DNA of 64,000 nt from Paludibacteraceae bacterium (lineage in GTDB: Bacteria > Bacteroidota > Bacteroidia > Bacteroidales > Paludibacteraceae). A program made the position numbers and the translations under genes. Shown piece after piece: positions 3,719 to 63,613 of the stretch. Each line of letters begins with the position of its first letter. Positions within the stretch are counted from its first letter, which is position 1. The DNA lies in assembly GCA_905233375.1 (NCBI GenBank), contig CAJOEJ010000001.1, forward strand, positions 55,585 to 119,584, in the 5' to 3' direction. The notes under the pieces are model-generated. The model did no database searches, was not told where the DNA came from, and saw nothing but the letters and a program-made list of their open reading frames with translations.

Positions 3719-3740
3719 GGAAACGGAGGAAGAGATTTTA

Positions 3741-3838
3741 AGTACCAAGTGACCAAGTACCAAGTACCAAGTGACCAAGTACCAAGTACAAAGGGACAAA
3801 GTTCAATGTACAAAGTGACAATGTACAATGTACAAAGG
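3741..3838. repeat. AAGTACC/AAGTGACC and TACAATGTACAAAG repeat cluster
   Basis: Alternating AAGTACC and AAGTGACC units pass into GTACAAAGGGACAAAG, TGACAATGTACAATG and TACAAAGGAAG. This is the largest member of the repeat family in the window and ends about 60 bp before the nrdD start. The same alternating unit recurs inside a coding region at 37433-37480. Confidence 0.85.
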
Positions 3839-14843: not shown

Positions 14844-14849
14844 AGATAT

Positions 14850-14880
14850 TTACAATTTACAAAGTACAATGTACAATTTA
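14850..14880. repeat. TACAATGTACAAAG-family repeat between slyD and der
   Basis: TTACAATTTACAAAGTACAATGTACAATTTA fills almost the whole 37-bp gap between the slyD stop and the der start. Confidence 0.75.
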
Positions 14881-15474: not shown

Positions 15475-15521
15475 AATATTTACAATTTAACAATTTACCA
15501 TTTTATGATTTATGGACGGTT

Positions 15522-19932: not shown

Positions 19933-20085
19933 GCCAAAATATGTGAATTTTGTGCATTTTTGGCTAAAACTGAATATTGAGTTTGAGCCAAAGTTGATGT
20001 TTTTAGTGCGTTTTTGGCTAAAACTGGATAGTGAGTTTGAGCCAAAGTTGGTATTTTTAATACGTTTTTGGCTAAAACTGATGAG
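19933..20085. repeat. 54-bp tandem repeat with internal inverted arms (nearly three units)
   Basis: GCCAAA begins at 19933, 19987 and 20041, an exact 54-bp period. Each unit has AGCCAAA at one end and TTTTTGGCTAAAACT ~30 bp later, so each can fold into a hairpin. Units differ at several positions (AATATT/GATAGT, GATG/GGTA). The last unit overlaps the stop codon of the lipoprotein at 20072, and the array ends next to the promoter of the AAA-ATPase. No such array accompanies the second lipoprotein/ATPase pair. Confidence 0.9.
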
Positions 20086-34398: not shown

Positions 34399-35910
34399 TT
34401 ATTGCACTTCCGAGCCGGACACATTATATGTCTTGCCGCCTTGGAGGATGAACAGCTGACCGTCCTTGATCAGCTTCCGGCTCTGCTCCCTTGGCTCCTG
34501 GCTTACATGCTCCGTGCCTTCCCATTCGCCCATGGTGAAATAGCCCGGATAGGCGCTTCCTCCGTCGGGACGGGCATACAGACCGTTGGTATGCTCCTCG
34601 CTGTATGCCGTACCGCTGCCTCCCACCAGACTCGTACAGCCGCGGAACATCTGGCTCGATCCCGAACCTGCTATTTTGTCACTGAGCAGGGACCAGTCTT
34701 TGAAGCAATAGATAGCGGTGAGCGACGAGCAGTAGTCGAACATCATCGAGCAGTCATTGACGTTGTGTACGTCAAACGCATTCAGATCCACCACCTTCAG
34801 CGCCTCGCATTGCTTGAATAGATTGACCATCTCCGTCACGTTAGAGGTGTTGAAATGGCTCAGATCCACCGCCGTCAGAGAGAGGCACCCGCCGAACATA
34901 CTGTTCATATTGGTCACCTCGTCCGTCTTCAGGTGCTCCATGCCTTCGATACGGGTCAGGTTGTTCAACGTATAATAACCGCCACTGAACATATACGCCG
35001 TCGTCGTGAGATGCGCATTCTCCATCGACTCGTCTATCACCGCTTTGGTGATGTCGTTGTGGTAGGTCTCGAAGCGCTTGTGATTGTCTTTGACAGAGGG
35101 ATAGAGCTCGATCTCGCCCGAACGGGTCGCCATCTGGTCGTCGAAATAATACGTGAGCGTGCCGTCCGCATAGACGGTATAAACTCTCATCTGCGAGAAA
35201 TATCCCGGAGCCTCTGCGCCTCCGTCCGGACGCGCGTAGGTCTTGTCCTTCATATTCGGGTTGTATGCCGTACCCGCATTGCCCTTGAGCGCACTGCAAC
35301 CGTCGAACATATCGGTATGCGAAACGAGCGTCTCGCTCGCGCTCCAGTCTTCGTCGCACAGAATGGTCTGCAATGCCGTACAGCCCTTGAACATGCCGTA
35401 CATGTTGCTTACCTTCGTCACATCAAAACTGCGCAGATCCAGCTTGGTCAGCGAACGGCAGTTGGTGAACAGATAGCGCATGTCGCGCACGTTGGACGTA
35501 CGGAAACTGCTCAGGTCGATCTCTGTCAGAGACGAACAGCCGTAGAACATACAGCCCATATCTTCTGCGCCGTCGGTGTTCAGGTTCTCCAAGCCGACGA
35601 TCTCCGTCACATTTTTAAGTGTTACCGTGCTGTTTCCACGAAACAGGCTGAAGAATACCTTACTCGGATCATTGCGCATCGTGAAATCGATCACCACGCG
35701 CGTGATGCGGTCGTTGTAGCCCTCGAAGCGGGGATTACTTGCGCTGTACAGCTCCACTGTCCCGGACCGGTACTCGCGGATATCGTCGTAATAATAGGTG
35801 AGCGTTCCGGTGTTCTCGTCAAACACGGTGTACCGCTCCTCTTTCGCCTGCATGCTCACTGCCGCCAGCACCGCTAACGCAATAAATAGTACACTTTTCC
35901 TCATAATCAT
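34399..35910 (-). CDS. BspA-like surface protein with two DUF285-type repeat arrays and C-terminal tail motif
   Basis: About 503 residues from MIMRKSVLFIALAVLAAVSMQA (MRKS at 35904 is an equally good start). Two arrays of ~25-residue units occupy residues ~90-200 and ~310-430, with the signature MFYGCSSLTEIDLSSFRTSNV and MFGGCLSLTAVDLSHFNTSNV of the DUF285/BspA type of leucine-rich repeat. Each array is preceded by a domain starting YTVF/YTVY and D-GTLTYYFDD. The end (KLIKDGQLFILQGGKTYNVS) is the recurrent tail. These proteins are secreted and often bind host or matrix proteins; the ligand here is unknown. The 5' end is fused to a 48-bp repeat. Confidence 0.85.
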   Translation of the reverse strand: MIMRKSVLFIALAVLAAVSMQAKEERYTVFDENTGTLTYYYDDIREYRSGTVELYSASNPRFEGYNDRITRVVIDFTMRNDPSKVFFSLFRGNSTVTLKNVTEIVGLENLNTDGAEDMGCMFYGCSSLTEIDLSSFRTSNVRDMRYLFTNCRSLTKLDLRSFDVTKVSNMYGMFKGCTALQTILCDEDWSASETLVSHTDMFDGCSALKGNAGTAYNPNMKDKTYARPDGGAEAPGYFSQMRVYTVYADGTLTYYFDDQMATRSGEIELYPSVKDNHKRFETYHNDITKAVIDESMENAHLTTTAYMFSGGYYTLNNLTRIEGMEHLKTDEVTNMNSMFGGCLSLTAVDLSHFNTSNVTEMVNLFKQCEALKVVDLNAFDVHNVNDCSMMFDYCSSLTAIYCFKDWSLLSDKIAGSGSSQMFRGCTSLVGGSGTAYSEEHTNGLYARPDGGSAYPGYFTMGEWEGTEHVSQEPREQSRKLIKDGQLFILQGGKTYNVSGSEVQ

Positions 35911-35947
35911 TCCAAAGGGTTTTGTTTGTTTTTTTCTAAACTTATCG
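35900..35947 (-). repeat. 48-bp repeat covering the BspA-like start codons
   Basis: Matches 3322-3369 at 46 of 48 bases and includes one arm of the structured element plus the ATGATTATGAG start. The partner arm of the element is not found next to the gene. Confidence 0.85.
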
Positions 35948-35980
35948 GCATCAGTACAAATCAATTACACACGCAAACAA

Positions 35981-36131: not shown

Positions 36132-36163
36132 CAAAATTACAAAAAAATTTTCATATTTGCAAA
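36132..36163 (-). promoter_or_regulatory. Promoter of the BspA-like gene
   Basis: Minus-strand TTTG, 20 bp, TAATTTTG. The start would be near 36125, giving a leader of ~215 nt that holds the C10 tract, a hairpin and the 48-bp repeat. Confidence 0.8.
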
Positions 36164-36188: not shown

Positions 36189-36254
36189 TCATTCTGAACC
36201 CGTCTTAACCTGGTCTAAACTTGGTCTTAACCTGGTCTAAACCCTGTAAAACAC
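36189..36254. repeat. 11-bp-period tandem array B
   Basis: Six units in register, including CCGTCTTAACC, TGGTCTAAACT, TGGTCTTAACC and TGGTCTAAACC. On the minus strand it ends GACGGGTTCAGAATG, closely matching the end of array D (AACGGGTTCAGAATG). Confidence 0.85.
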
Positions 36255-36274
36255 CCTCCCTTGCCGATTTACCC

Positions 36275-36742
36275 TTATAGCATCATTGCCATATACAATG
36301 GGAGGTAAATGATGTCGTTGTGTTGTTTATATTGAAATTTGTTCAGGACAAGGCTTCGCTCCACATACTCCGATTGCTCATCCAACACATTGTCCAATGC
36401 CGCATGTTTTTCATAGTCATTGCCTGATTTGACCTCAATAACAGTCACTTTTTTCTCTTCACGGATAAGGAAATCCAGTTCATTGCGGCTCTTGCGGTCA
36501 TAGTAATGAAGTGTGTGTCCGTGTTTGCTCAGTTCCGTAGCCACGAAATTCTCCGTAAGGGCTCCCTCATTGATGTCTATATCCCCGTTAAGCACCTGCC
36601 ATTGGATGTTATCGCCCCACATGGCACACAACAAACCTGTATCCAGCAGATAGACTTTGAATAGATTGCGGTTCTCGTACTGCTCAAAAGGCAGATTAAG
36701 TGCGTGCGTGTTATAGCAGAAGAGTGGCTTATAATCTTTCGT
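36275..36742 (-). pseudogene. C-terminal remnant of an AAA-ATPase/DUF4143-type protein
   Basis: Only the C-terminal ~155 codons remain. The frame is open upstream to a TAA at 36743 with no usable early start: KPLFCYNTHALNLPFEQYEN, then FKVYLLDTGLLCAMWGDN, then GALTENFVATEL and NELDFLIREEKKVTVIEVKSG. This matches the DUF4143 domain with its D...E-x-K nuclease-like motif. The ATPase domain is absent. A consensus promoter remains at 36816, so the gene was once complete and lost its front. It is a different subfamily from the two DUF234-type ATPases. Confidence 0.8.
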
Positions 36743-36847: not shown

Positions 36848-36948
36848 TATTTTGGTAAATATTTTGGGATTTTTACCCATTTTCGGCACTTGTGATCACC
36901 TTTGCTCCGTGTGACAGCGCGGAGAAAAGTTTCGTCCCACAGAAATTC

Positions 36949-37047
36949 CGCGACTTGATCGAGACAATGTCGAGAAATGATAGAGAAAATCACGAGACAA
37001 TTCCGAGCAGACTCAAGCCAGATTCAGCCATACCTGAGCCATACCCA
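36949..37047. repeat. 11-bp-period tandem array C
   Basis: Nine units in register: CGCGACTTGAT, CGAGACAATGT, CGAGAAATGAT, AGAGAAAATCA, CGAGACAATTC, CGAGCAGACTC, AAGCCAGATTC, AGCCATACCTG, AGCCATACCCA. The first units match array D (CGCGACTTTATCGAGACATAG). The 83-aa ORF over it (36892-37143) is not supported. Confidence 0.85.
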
Positions 37048-37379: not shown

Positions 37380-38956
37380 TTGTAAGTCTTGTCGCCAACG
37401 AGGATGAACAGTTGTCCGTCACGGATGACCTTGGTCCCTTGTACTTTGTCACTTGGTACTTGGTCACTTGGTACTTGGTCAATGCCTTCGCCGCGGGTGC
37501 GGACATACTTGTAGATAGGCGGTTCGCCGTCCGAATCGCTGGTGGTGTAGAACGTGTTGTCATCCAGCCAGCAGATGGCTTCGCCCTGCCATTCGTACTC
37601 GTAGCAGTCGATGACCTGGGGCTGGCGCTTCACTGTCTCGGCGATGCTCTCGTTGCCCTCACGCTCCCAATAGAGCACCCATGAATAGGCGGCTTCGATA
37701 TTGTTGTGGTTCTTGATGAGCACATACTTGCCGTCTGCGGAGATGTCCGCGCCCGTTACCAGATGGAAACCGCGGCATTGCTGGTTCTTGGCATTCATGC
37801 CGATATCCGATTTCAGACCGAGGTCGCATACATAGGTGAGCGTCTGCGTCGCATCGCCGTAGTCCGTACGGAAAGGCAGGCTGAAGACCTGGCACACGTT
37901 GTAGTAAACCTTCGTGATGATATACAGTTTCTGCTCCACGTTGTCGTACATCAGCGCCTCGTTGTTATGGCTCAGCCCGTCCGGATAGACATAATGGATC
38001 TGCATCGGATCCACATTGATCTCGCCTCCCGTGATAGCCGGTTCCTCGAAATAGACAATGCTGTAGAAGTCATCCTCCTCGTTGTTGTCGCCGAACGCAC
38101 CGATGAAGAGGTAGTTCTTGTTGTTATACACACCGCCGCACAGGTCTTCCCAGTCCCAGTAACGGATGTTTAACGTCCTCAGATTCGGGAAGTTGACTTT
38201 CATTGCCTGATTCTGTCCCTGTTCGGTCGTGGCGATGATATAATCGCCGAAATTGTCACTCTCCATCCAGATGTAACCCGGTGTGGTACGCGAGCAGGCG
38301 ATACCGGACACTTCGTCCAGATTAAGGCTCTCGCTGACCGAACCGATCTGCGTGCGCGTGAACTCGGTGTTATGCGGCAGAATGACACCGTTGTACATCA
38401 GCGAATCGGGGTTGTCCGTTACCGGAGGCTCCTCGCCGTCGTCCAGCAGCGTGAGCTGGATATTGCGCAGGTCAAACGAACCGGAGGTCGATGAACCCGG
38501 ATTGACGATAAAGCCCAGACGGTTGAACGCCTGCGTGCCGATACTGTAACCCGGCTCGTCCCAGTCCAGGTTGCCGTCCGGCGTCGTGAGCTCGCTCTGC
38601 CAGGCGGTATTCTGTATATTGGGCCAGTAGTCGTTCTGTATCCAGCGGTTGCCTTCCACATCACGCAGATAGACGAACAGCACGATGCCGTCGTCAAAGC
38701 CCGGAGCACCGTCCCCTTTGTACTCATACGCGATAGTAGGGATCTTGGTCAGATTCTCCAGCGGGAACTCCACGCCAGCCCATTGCCAGCCTCCCGAGGT
38801 GTATTCGATATGCAGCACACCGTCCGCAACGGTCGGAGTAGCGGAACAACCTGTGTAGGCGATAGACGTGGCGGCATTCAGGTTGATGTTGATGACCTTC
38901 GCCTGAAGGGACACCGCCGCACATACAGCAATAACCAATAAGAATAATTTTTTCAT
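37355..38956 (-). CDS. Secreted protein: CBM-like domain, propeller-like domain, repeat-derived linker, C-terminal tail motif
   Basis: 533 residues with a signal peptide (MKKLFLLVIAVCAAVSLQA). Residues ~20-170 form a beta-sandwich-like domain (WAGVEFPLENLTKIPTIAYE, GSFDLRNIQLTLLDDG) comparable to carbohydrate-binding modules. Residues ~190-490 have repeated strand pairs with EVSGIACSRTTPGYIWMESD and LYIITKVYYNVCQVFSLPF, suggesting a beta-propeller; the family is not certain. Just before the tail KVIRDGQLFILVGDKTYNAT lies DQVPSDQVPSDKVQGTKV, encoded by the AAGTACC/AAGTGACC dispersed DNA repeat. Last gene of the SusCD operon; the end of the gene and its terminator are duplicated downstream. Confidence 0.8.
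   Translation of the reverse strand: MKKLFLLVIAVCAAVSLQAKVININLNAATSIAYTGCSATPTVADGVLHIEYTSGGWQWAGVEFPLENLTKIPTIAYEYKGDGAPGFDDGIVLFVYLRDVEGNRWIQNDYWPNIQNTAWQSELTTPDGNLDWDEPGYSIGTQAFNRLGFIVNPGSSTSGSFDLRNIQLTLLDDGEEPPVTDNPDSLMYNGVILPHNTEFTRTQIGSVSESLNLDEVSGIACSRTTPGYIWMESDNFGDYIIATTEQGQNQAMKVNFPNLRTLNIRYWDWEDLCGGVYNNKNYLFIGAFGDNNEEDDFYSIVYFEEPAITGGEINVDPMQIHYVYPDGLSHNNEALMYDNVEQKLYIITKVYYNVCQVFSLPFRTDYGDATQTLTYVCDLGLKSDIGMNAKNQQCRGFHLVTGADISADGKYVLIKNHNNIEAAYSWVLYWEREGNESIAETVKRQPQVIDCYEYEWQGEAICWLDDNTFYTTSDSDGEPPIYKYVRTRGEGIDQVPSDQVPSDKVQGTKVIRDGQLFILVGDKTYNATGVEVR
37433..37480 (-). repeat. Dispersed repeat inside the coding region
   Basis: GACCAAGTACCAAGTGACC repeated units and GTACAAAGGGACC on the minus strand match the cluster at 3741-3838. 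It keeps the reading frame and encodes a linker. Confidence 0.9.
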
Positions 38957-61241: not shown

Positions 61242-61258
61242 TCGTCCCTTCATTCATT

Positions 61259-61338
61259 CCGCGACTTTATCGAGACATAGTCGAGATAGGATTAAGACAG
61301 AGTCAAGACAGAGTTAAGACAAGGTTTTAACGGGTTCA
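61259..61338. repeat. 11-bp-period tandem array D
   Basis: Seven units in register: CCGCGACTTTA, TCGAGACATAG, TCGAGATAGGA, TTAAGACAGAG, TCAAGACAGAG, TTAAGACAAGG, TTTTAACGGGT, then TCAGAATG. Its front matches array C and its end matches array B. Confidence 0.9.
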
Positions 61339-61390
61339 GAATGTTTTTTGCATTAAAACTGCATTTTTTTGCCCCAAAAATGCACGATTG

Positions 61391-61422
61391 TTTGCATATA
61401 TGCAATTTTTGTTGTACCTTTG
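61391..61422 (+). promoter_or_regulatory. Promoter of the 61.4-kb secreted protein
   Basis: TTTG, 20 bp, TACCTTTG; the -33 box lies in the palindrome TTGCATATATGCAA. Confidence 0.85.
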
Positions 61423-61453
61423 CAGCGCAATTTTGTTTAAAAACTTACAAGTT

Positions 61454-63613
61454 ATGAAAAAATTTACCTTCTTTTCAAGTTTTGCGTTGATGGTATTGAT
61501 GCTCATGCCGTCTGTACGCATGTATGGTGAACAATCCCGTCTGACGATGTCTTTCGTGGACGCGACCGGCAGACCCGTACGAATGATTGAGGCGACGATC
61601 GGTCAAGAGGTCACCGAACCGACCTTACTTATTCGTCCCGCAGATGCGGATGTGCGCATCACGTATTCGTCTTCGGATCCGACTGTAGCTACCGTCGATA
61701 TGATGAGCGGCGAAGTGACTCCCCTCTCCGTCGGTACCACCGCTATTCAGGCTACCTCGGGGGAAACAGCCGAATATTATGGTTCCTATACCACCTACAA
61801 TCTGAGTGTGGTTGCCCCGCAAGACACCACGCCAGAAGAACCCACATGTCCTGAAGCGCATTTCTACATGAACGGTGCGCAAGTGACGACGCTCACATTG
61901 AAAGTTGGAGAGAGCGTGAGTGTGCCGATGCTGATGAGTGCGGCTGGCAGTATGCTCTCCGGTAATGTGAACATCGACAACCGCACGGTAGCAATGGTAT
62001 CTGCGGATAACATGATCCACGGTTTGGCAGCGGGTACAGCGACGCTCTTCGTGATGACCACCAGCACCGTGAACGGACAAATACTCACCTGCAACTACTC
62101 GCTGGATCTGGTCGTGGAAGAGGCTGCACCGCAGAAACAGAGTCCGGAATTGAGCTGGAGCGATACGGTCTTGTACGCCGAGTTGGGTGTACCGTGTGCG
62201 GCACCTGCCCTGTATAACCCGCACAACGTACCGATGAATAAAATCGAATCGCAGAACCCCAACGTGGCGGAAGTGTCGGAAGACGGAACTCAGTTAACAA
62301 TCAAAGGGGTAGGCGACGCACTCATCTTCGCCGAAAGTTTCGAAACATCGGAATATTTTGCGCAAAGCGTCAGTTACATCATTCATGTGAGCACGATCGG
62401 TCTGAGAGTCAAAGGCATCAACGTGACGAGCCTCAATGCGGCGGACGTGTTGGGCGACGGTTCGTACAACGTGACCTTCGACGTAACAAGCCGCACGCTG
62501 CATCTCAACAGCTGGCAGATCGATGGCGCAAACCTGAGTCTGGATGCGATGATCAAAGACGAAGGCGCAGAGCAACCGCTGACCATTATGCTGCATGGCG
62601 TCAATGCCATCACGAACGTGCAGACGTGCATCTTGGCTGCCGGCGTTCCAGTGATTGTGATGGGGCAGTCGATGCGCGATATACTGACTCTGAGTGCCGC
62701 CCAGGTAGCTGTCAATACACCGTATTTCAAGATTCATCAGTGCAGCGTAAGCGCACAAGCTCCGATTGCAGCTATCAAATTAGGCAACGAACTGGGTGTG
62801 TCCAGGAACTCGCATCTTTTGGCTACGTCCACAGGCTTGGCTATCCAGTGCAAGACTCTGGTGCTGGCGGAAGGAGAGGAAGGTGTGGCTATCCTGACAC
62901 CCGGTGTCCGTTTTGAGGCGCAGAAAGGGTTCATGACCGCCAATAACCAATATGCCAAAGACGTGGAGATCGGCAAAGTGCCGGTAGTGGCTCCGGCGGA
63001 CGAGGTGACAACGATCGACTTCACCGCGACCGATCCCGAAGGCAATGAGACCATCGTGTTCAGCGCATCGGCGGACGATACGTACAACGAAGAGACCGGA
63101 CAATTGGAACTCGCTACCTCGCTCACCGACGAAGCGGTGGCGCAGGCTCTGGAAGACCTCGTTCCCGGTTCGAGTGCATGGATCGACATGCTTCCGGGTT
63201 CGCTGGTATTCGACATCCCTGCAGGTGCAGGTAAGGTGCAAGTGCATTGTATGACGCTGGTAGGCTACACGCTGCAGGTGAAGCTGGAAGGTCAGGCTGT
63301 CGTCAGCATCTCGCAAACGGCACTGGGATGGGCAGAGGTGACGTATAACGTACCGGCACCCATCCACGTGGTCATCTATCTGCATGCACAGTCTGCAGCA
63401 TCCGCTCCTGCACGCATCGCAACACGCATGGAGGATGCCGTTTCGGCAGGTGCGTACATCCAAGCCGTGAAGATCGTTCCGGCGGATGCGCCTACGGCTA
63501 TTGAGCATGCTTTGATTGAATCGGATGGCACCTCCAAAGTGCTCATGAACGGTCAAATCTATATCCTGCGCGGAGAGAAGATGTACACCCTGGATGGTAC
63601 TCAAATCAAATAA
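61454..63613 (+). CDS. Secreted protein with Big2-type Ig domains and C-terminal tail motif
   Basis: 719 residues from MKKFTFFSSFALMVLMLMPSVRMYG; the track's earlier start lies in the promoter. Residues ~30-125 are a Big2-like domain (VRITYSSSDPTVATVDMMSG, GTTAIQATSG). Further Ig-like domains follow (SVSVPMLMSAAGSMLSGNVN, MIHGLAAGTATLFV; then LSWSDTVLYAELGVPCAAP). A later region (YNVTFDVTSRTLHLNSWQID, AEQPLTIMLHGVNAI) resembles parallel-beta repeats like those in the 2171-aa protein. The tail KVLMNGQIYILRGEKMYTLD is the recurrent motif. Probably surface-exposed; function unknown. Confidence 0.8.
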   Translation: MKKFTFFSSFALMVLMLMPSVRMYGEQSRLTMSFVDATGRPVRMIEATIGQEVTEPTLLIRPADADVRITYSSSDPTVATVDMMSGEVTPLSVGTTAIQATSGETAEYYGSYTTYNLSVVAPQDTTPEEPTCPEAHFYMNGAQVTTLTLKVGESVSVPMLMSAAGSMLSGNVNIDNRTVAMVSADNMIHGLAAGTATLFVMTTSTVNGQILTCNYSLDLVVEEAAPQKQSPELSWSDTVLYAELGVPCAAPALYNPHNVPMNKIESQNPNVAEVSEDGTQLTIKGVGDALIFAESFETSEYFAQSVSYIIHVSTIGLRVKGINVTSLNAADVLGDGSYNVTFDVTSRTLHLNSWQIDGANLSLDAMIKDEGAEQPLTIMLHGVNAITNVQTCILAAGVPVIVMGQSMRDILTLSAAQVAVNTPYFKIHQCSVSAQAPIAAIKLGNELGVSRNSHLLATSTGLAIQCKTLVLAEGEEGVAILTPGVRFEAQKGFMTANNQYAKDVEIGKVPVVAPADEVTTIDFTATDPEGNETIVFSASADDTYNEETGQLELATSLTDEAVAQALEDLVPGSSAWIDMLPGSLVFDIPAGAGKVQVHCMTLVGYTLQVKLEGQAVVSISQTALGWAEVTYNVPAPIHVVIYLHAQSAASAPARIATRMEDAVSAGAYIQAVKIVPADAPTAIEHALIESDGTSKVLMNGQIYILRGEKMYTLDGTQIK

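Follow-up and report, generated by a model that had tools for sequence, protein, structure and literature searches.

The window analysed here is a 64,000-nucleotide stretch of the forward strand of contig CAJOEJ010000001.1 (positions 55,585 to 119,584) from a Paludibacteraceae bacterium, whose fragmented draft genome comprises 2.23 Mb in 47 contigs, is 84% complete, and had its genes called with a simple codon model. Four arrays of short direct repeats, A to D, lie within it. Array A (2886–2990, core 2921–2969) is read on the minus strand with the unit GGGGTGATTAC. Array B (36189–36257, minus strand, unit GGTTAAGACCA) sits upstream of the promoter of a minus-strand gene for a DUF285/BspA-type leucine-rich protein (34399–35964; Pfam PF03382), with a −7 box, TAATTTTG, at 36132–36139 on the same strand. 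The promoter-side end of array B, GGGTTCAGAATG (36190–36201, minus strand), is a motif that also terminates array D and is found in variant form in two further genomic copies. A fragment of a DUF4143-type protein lies between arrays B and C at 36275–36740, with a stop-broken reading frame upstream of it. Array C (36945–37047, plus strand) opens with the head TTCCGCGACTTGATCGAGACA (36946–36966, plus strand), and its unit CGAGACAATGT drifts to GAGCCATACCT; the second half, after approximately 37000, is far more diverged than the first and still keeps the register. Array D (61257–61342, plus strand) runs from units CGAGACATAGT to TTAAGACAGAG, with the array C head at 61257–61277 and the array B end at 61332–61342. 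Downstream of it are a −7 box, TACCTTTG, at 61415–61422 and an open reading frame called at 61388–63613 for a Big_2 protein (Pfam PF02368), both on the plus strand; translation of this protein probably starts past the promoter, at about 61456–61490. The original prediction had placed all four arrays outside genes, and the gene predictions agree.

The same prediction had assigned these arrays an exact 11-bp period, which is borne out by Tandem Repeats Finder, by a lag scan and by local Markov simulation. Tandem Repeats Finder reports period 11 at 2921–2968, 36202–36243, 36959–37001 and 61294–61321 and period 22 at 36956–36997 and 61273–61321. Across the window the lag scan gives four lag-11 regions, at arrays A to D, and zero regions at lags 10 and 13, while simulation yields 0.18 chance regions per window with a maximum of two in 200. 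The four arrays are confirmed as real and beyond chance. Beyond the window, figures for the genome rest on a sample of approximately 453 kb, about a fifth of the 2.23 Mb. There the excess at lag 11 over simulated sequence, the check by which the periodicity claim was to stand or fall, proved large, with 20 regions compared with 0.45 simulated, two at lag 10 and three at lag 12. In 41 arrays from five species, identity at lags 11, 22, 33, 44 and 55 is 0.64, 0.57, 0.51, 0.42 and 0.35, and the lags adjoining these multiples remain at a background of 0.23–0.29, so the register persists through heavy substitution without insertions or deletions. A large excess is seen only at periods 7 and 11 and their multiples.

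Of 35 classified 11-bp arrays 33 are intergenic, ten in divergent and one in convergent regions. They are placed between transcription units, often directly after a stop codon and ahead of the next promoter. Divergent regions commonly hold 11-bp arrays, in contrast to another array class, built of 7-bp units, which is represented in the window at 3740–3838, 14848–14880, 15478–15505 and 37430–37481 and in some cases shows an 8-7-7 superperiod of 22 bp. The 453-kb sample contains 71 lag-7 regions, which occupy operon spacers and also, unlike the 11-bp class, predicted coding regions. In-frame 7-bp arrays are found inside genes at L079:6943–6982, L084:2229–2281 and L084:3756–3802; they apparently fall in rsmH, at a position occupied by another repeat in a related species, and in N-terminal stretches that resemble signal peptides. 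A conserved element of about 150 bp (AAGAAAGGGC...GACGCTTTC) lies between inverted 7-bp arrays, with several copies within 55 kb (L078:7395–7618, L079:9960–10160, L079:11633–11849 and L079:15969–16171), and is missing from the corresponding spacers of species G158. The window also contains 2.5 copies of a 54-bp tandem unit at 19948–20081.

The arrays fall into sequence families. Array A is a member of a CCCCGTAATCA/GGGGTGATTAC family, which has six sites in the genome and is separate from B, C and D. Arrays C and D have the head TTCCGCGACTTnATCGAGACA in common, at eight sites and in this species only among 61 genomes of the family, and arrays B and D have the end GGGTTCAGAAT in common. The proposed common ancestry of B, C and D therefore holds, as D carries the head of C (86% over 37 bp) and, in the opposite orientation, the end of B (77% over 56 bp). 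Array D is located where the approximately 82% similarity to the nearest relatives ends, and these relatives are too diverged for an insertion to be read. In a relative (L107, genome G097), the spacer at the place of array D, after position 2790, holds a pyrimidine-rich 11-bp array (CTTCTTCCCGA), and beyond it an array like window A with an AT palindrome. A search with the head of array C in named genomes returned only two unrelated proteobacterial matches, about the level of chance.

A third family, type I (CCCAAGGATnn), is a composite in which a linker of about 33 bp joins four regular 11-bp units to the AT-rich palindrome TATATATAC-nnn-GTATATATA. When the host sequence was used as query, matches were gathered from 80 of 178 congeners, many of them almost full length. 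At every turn of the type I array the CC and GAT positions of the unit are conserved and the rest varies, and the units of one array switch jointly between species, being CCCAAGGAT in some and CCATAGGAT in others. Palindromes of the TATA type lie within 70 bp of an 11-bp array in all eight cases in the 453-kb sample. Three CGAGACA-like units at 11-bp spacing find a match in 73 of 101 congeners, with reversed controls mostly at zero, and stretches from four other species contain many unrelated 11-bp units. Two contig starts of the host (G000:C5:1–200 and G000:C14:1–180) carry a near-identical gene end followed by differing versions of a CGAGACA array, which probably marks a repeated gene at which the assembly broke. 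Array ends in L015, L016, L060 and L074 share the motif CGAGACAATCCTAGACTTT, which is apparently within coding sequence in L016 and L074 and runs on into the palindrome GACTTTAGTC in L015 and L060.

Many arrays keep a constant distance to a promoter. The type I gap from array end to palindrome is mostly 33–34 bp, and in 14 promoter copies, drawn from nine species besides the host, the palindrome centre and the −7 box are 55.5–57.5 bp apart, most commonly 57.5 bp; several of these are orthologous sites, such as that of QueF in three species, and so not all are independent. Two host copies have their palindrome centre 64.5 and 66.5 bp from the −7 box. The array end is 51 bp from the −7 box for array B, 51 bp for a relative (L012) and 72 bp for array D, the difference of 21 bp corresponding to two helical turns; for arrays A and C no promoter is present where such spacing would place it. 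The genes behind dispersed type I copies vary between species and share no common theme, encoding QueF, QueH, SSB, RuvA, a response regulator, CdsA and RlmL.

A type I element also occupies the leader of a gene whose product has about 276 residues, in the host and in ten other species, with the palindrome centre 27.5–29.5 bp from the ATG. Leader and dispersed type I copies, again gathered with the host sequence as query, are more alike within a genome (0.78) than between genomes (0.65; permutation p 0.0002). The protein combines a novel N-terminal domain of about 140 residues with a GNAT domain, and a search with the N-terminal domain recovered paralogues in the host. These define a family of proteins of approximately 105–150 residues, one subfamily of which has the C-terminal GNAT acetyltransferase. 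Profile searches find 11 members in the host genome and place the family in 60 of 61 congeners, with up to 35 genes per genome; it reaches eight of 33 genera of the taxonomic family and five of 151 genera of the order. Sampled genomes of five other genera (G001, G006, G018, G019 and G033) contained no family member, and about 100 kb from each gave no lag-11 region at a strict threshold.

Within the domain M1 and G15 are invariant and K16, G30, F56 and Y96 nearly so. Its median pI is 10.0 and its net charge +10, compared with a pI of 5.8 for small control genes. Structure models predict a beta hairpin and three helices (pLDDT 84–88, pTM 0.64–0.68), and fold searches of these models against the PDB and viral models gave nothing better than E 0.1 and matched no known DNA-binding fold. 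Searches of Pfam, NCBIfam, PHROGs, PDB sequences and PDB folds returned no usable match and no recognised DNA-binding domain, and a Pfam search with five members left the N-terminal domain unmatched and detected no transposase, HUH, Y1 or Rep domain. A PDB sequence match to 4h22 was set aside as a coiled-coil resemblance. A phage origin was likewise rejected, one member's domain having no phage match and PHROGs giving no significant family, and the plasmid matches of the C2 protein (C2:39399) lay within its GNAT part (residues 132–276), among the matches listed.

Linkage between family and arrays was assessed with members chosen by protein homology and not by their arrays, an array being scored when the 320 bp ahead of the gene contained a lag-11 region of 22 of 33 or better. 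An array was present for 49 of 81 members and for 27 of 547 control genes, some of which may themselves be members; all other lags from 5 to 21 scored 0–6 in the same upstream regions of members. The 32 members with no detectable array include all those sampled from genome G014 of genus g15. In the host eight of the 11 members have such a leader region at the listing threshold, L314 being weak, and relatives in another family of the order (G317: L331 and L337) also carry 11-bp leader arrays. A TAnnTTTG box precedes the array in 37 of the 49 array-bearing members (a control motif does so in three), usually by 12–90 bp, so that the array usually lies between the TAnnTTTG promoter and the ATG.

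The units follow the protein subfamilies. The GNAT subfamily is accompanied by CC(C/A)(A/T)AGGATnn, the RTRNGRTHAY subfamily by TATACGnnnGA, the IHGK...YQK subfamily by CCGACGGTCAC or GACGAGAGTAA, and the RQKxYRD subfamily by units mostly with GTGATTA. Protein identity correlates with array similarity (Mantel r 0.67, p about 0.0005, with pairs that are not phylogenetically independent, related species entering into many of the comparisons); r is 0.48 for pairs below 40% identity and 0.18 for a control using the 55 bp before the ATG. Two of these pairings lead back to the window. The leader array of the C11 family gene, which lies on the minus strand at about 3.9–4.4 kb of host contig C11 (G000:C11), matches 2886–2990 at 87% over 105 bp; array A is thus a copy of that leader array and, as judged by sequence similarity, belongs with this gene. 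The C20 gene is on the minus strand at C20:22.6–23.0 kb. Its leader (GACGAGAGTAA) matches an array on C14 (L009) at 87.5% over 48 bp, and the head of the C14 array matches array C at 93% over 30 bp; array C thus appears tied to the C20 gene indirectly, through the array on C14, and the assignment of B and D depends on that of C.

We consider it probable, at roughly 60%, that the arrays are recognition sites, or operators, for this undescribed family of small basic proteins, which would regulate their own genes through them. One face of the helix would present an identical contact at every 11-bp unit, so that several protomers or modules could align along an array. A protein bound between promoter and start codon would block or modulate transcription of its own gene. 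Arrays copied to other places, frequently accompanied by the AT-rich palindrome, stand ahead of further promoters at distances constrained by the helical turn, and would bring the genes there under the same protein. The arrays, their linkage to the genes, and the units, geometry and charge described above are properties read directly from the sequences; binding of protein to DNA, the direction of any regulation and the route by which arrays reach new promoters are inferred. Repeated binding of a protein to one face had been one of two explanations in the original prediction, and the array-carrying basic family genes, the subfamily-specific units and the fixed promoter spacing lend it indirect support; that first reading was correct in part, having missed the gene family, the palindrome module and the genus-wide extent.

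The mixed and shifting set of downstream genes would be odd for a regulon and leaves a repeat-mobilising role open. The main rival is a repeat system of the REP/RAYT type, whether selfish or domesticated, in which the protein, or an enzyme that it assists, copies its own leader with array and palindrome and favours sites upstream of promoters, so that the arrays would be mobile elements and not operators. Dispersed copies that resemble one gene's leader array, their presence at different genes in different species, an AT-rich palindrome at one end of type I, heads limited to one species and up to 35 family genes in a genome would all follow from such a system. The N-terminal domain, however, has no Pfam match and comes with no transposase, HUH or Y1 domain; insertion alone would not be expected to give fixed distances of 51 or 57.5 bp to the promoter across unlike spacers; no target-site duplications were seen by eye; and the leader arrays of three families (L297, L078 and L087) have no copy found in the sample. 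On balance we regard mobility in place of regulation as unlikely, though it deserves more weight than any of the other alternatives.

Two further proposals are each improbable, and about equally so. In the first, autoregulation takes place at the RNA level, the protein binding the transcribed leader array and hairpin, with the dispersed copies as by-products or 3′ UTR sites. In 37 of 49 genes the leader array does follow the promoter, and the palindrome is close to the ATG, at 27.5–29.5 bp, but dispersed copies upstream of promoters and in divergent regions would be outside the sense transcript, the sign of the GC skew in transcript orientation is inconsistent, and an exact 11-bp register maintained despite substitutions fits a DNA helix better than a single strand. 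Two other RNA-level candidates were rejected: the window has no Rfam match, and Rho termination at rut sites, with one YC per 11 nt, is at odds with the lack of a C>G bias in transcript orientation and with GC skew of both signs in tandem gene contexts. The second proposal takes the family for nucleoid proteins specific to this lineage and the arrays for architectural sites, serving in nucleation or as boundaries between transcription units and not as operators of single genes. Their position between transcription units, often past a stop codon and before the next promoter, the mixed downstream genes and the very basic proteins would suit this role, while constant promoter spacing and subfamily-specific units indicate an action specific to promoters.

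Neutral minisatellites generated by replication slippage would account for the drop in similarity from neighbouring to distant units (0.64 to 0.35), which is partly an edge effect, and for the richness of the same genomes in 7-bp arrays. Slippage is nevertheless very hard to reconcile with a large excess confined to periods 7 and 11 and their multiples, with an indel-free register and conserved unit number and geometry, and is contradicted by the strong linkage to one gene family and the correlation between protein and unit. Intrinsic curvature, the other explanation originally put forward since 11 bp is close to one helical turn, has practically no standing, as the units contain no phased A-tracts, each array has only 0–2 A/T runs of four or more, and curvature predicts neither subfamily-specific units nor gene linkage.

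The arrays are therefore most likely, as far as their sequences can indicate, operators bound by a regulator family that is new and belongs to Bacteroidales of the gut and rumen. A broader proposal, to which we give somewhat less than even odds, is that they represent an unrecognised class of protein–DNA recognition in this order, in which an unclassified basic domain reads one motif per turn over 4–10 turns and has diversified within each genome into many paralogous protein–array pairs of separate specificity, rewiring promoters as arrays appear. Anonymous intergenic repeats of a large uncultured genus (178 species genomes) thereby become a testable system, and the 49 natural protein–array pairs could allow recognition rules to be learned from sequence. 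If the proteins do bind the arrays, annotation has wholly missed a regulator family that can reach dozens of genes in a single genome, and nature would have supplied an example of a protein and its repeated site changing in concert; if instead their role is to spread the arrays, the result would be a new repeat-mobilising system.

The idea of repeated operators is itself old; what is new is that the searched libraries contain no match to the protein family, to its fold or to the repeats described here, and no description of 11-bp arrays tied to a protein family was found in the open-licence literature. Plasmid iterons are directly repeated sites of 18–22 bp that lie on one helical face near AT-rich DNA, with an autoregulated Rep initiator gene. 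The present arrays resemble them in their direct repeats on one face, their adjoining AT-rich DNA and the autoregulation proposed for their own gene, and differ in that the 11-bp arrays are distributed over the chromosome at promoters and that Pfam detects no Rep domain. REP/REPIN sequences with their RAYT genes also combine a protein gene and its cognate repeat alongside with related repeats dispersed between genes (PMC3116915, PMC2817692), an arrangement mirrored here by the repeat at the protein gene and its dispersed copies. Their unit, however, is an imperfect palindrome, whereas here 11-bp direct repeats keep a fixed promoter spacing with a palindrome in some types only, and Pfam found no Y1/HUH transposase in five members.

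Among Bacteroidales, the BrickBuilt MITE of Porphyromonas gingivalis is likewise an intergenic array within a larger repeated element (PMC4596501). Its unit is 23 nt, compared with 11 bp here, its ends are inverted repeats, and its abstract describes no linked protein family; terminal inverted repeats were not seen in the aligned type I copies. Heptamer direct repeats of Beggiatoaceae, cyanobacteria and Bacteroidetes are also short and concentrated between genes (PMC4679880), and have a 7-bp unit of one sequence in place of the period of 11, the many unit sequences and the cognate protein subfamilies found here; within this genome the 7-bp arrays are a class separate from the 11-bp arrays. The last comparison is with transcription factors that autoregulate through multi-site operators, which have in common with the present system sites between the promoter and the start of a regulator-like gene, related sites at other promoters and spacing by helical turns. 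What sets the present system apart is a protein domain and fold unmatched in the libraries searched, and an organisation into head-to-tail 11-bp arrays of 4–10 units with many paralogous protein–array pairs in each genome.
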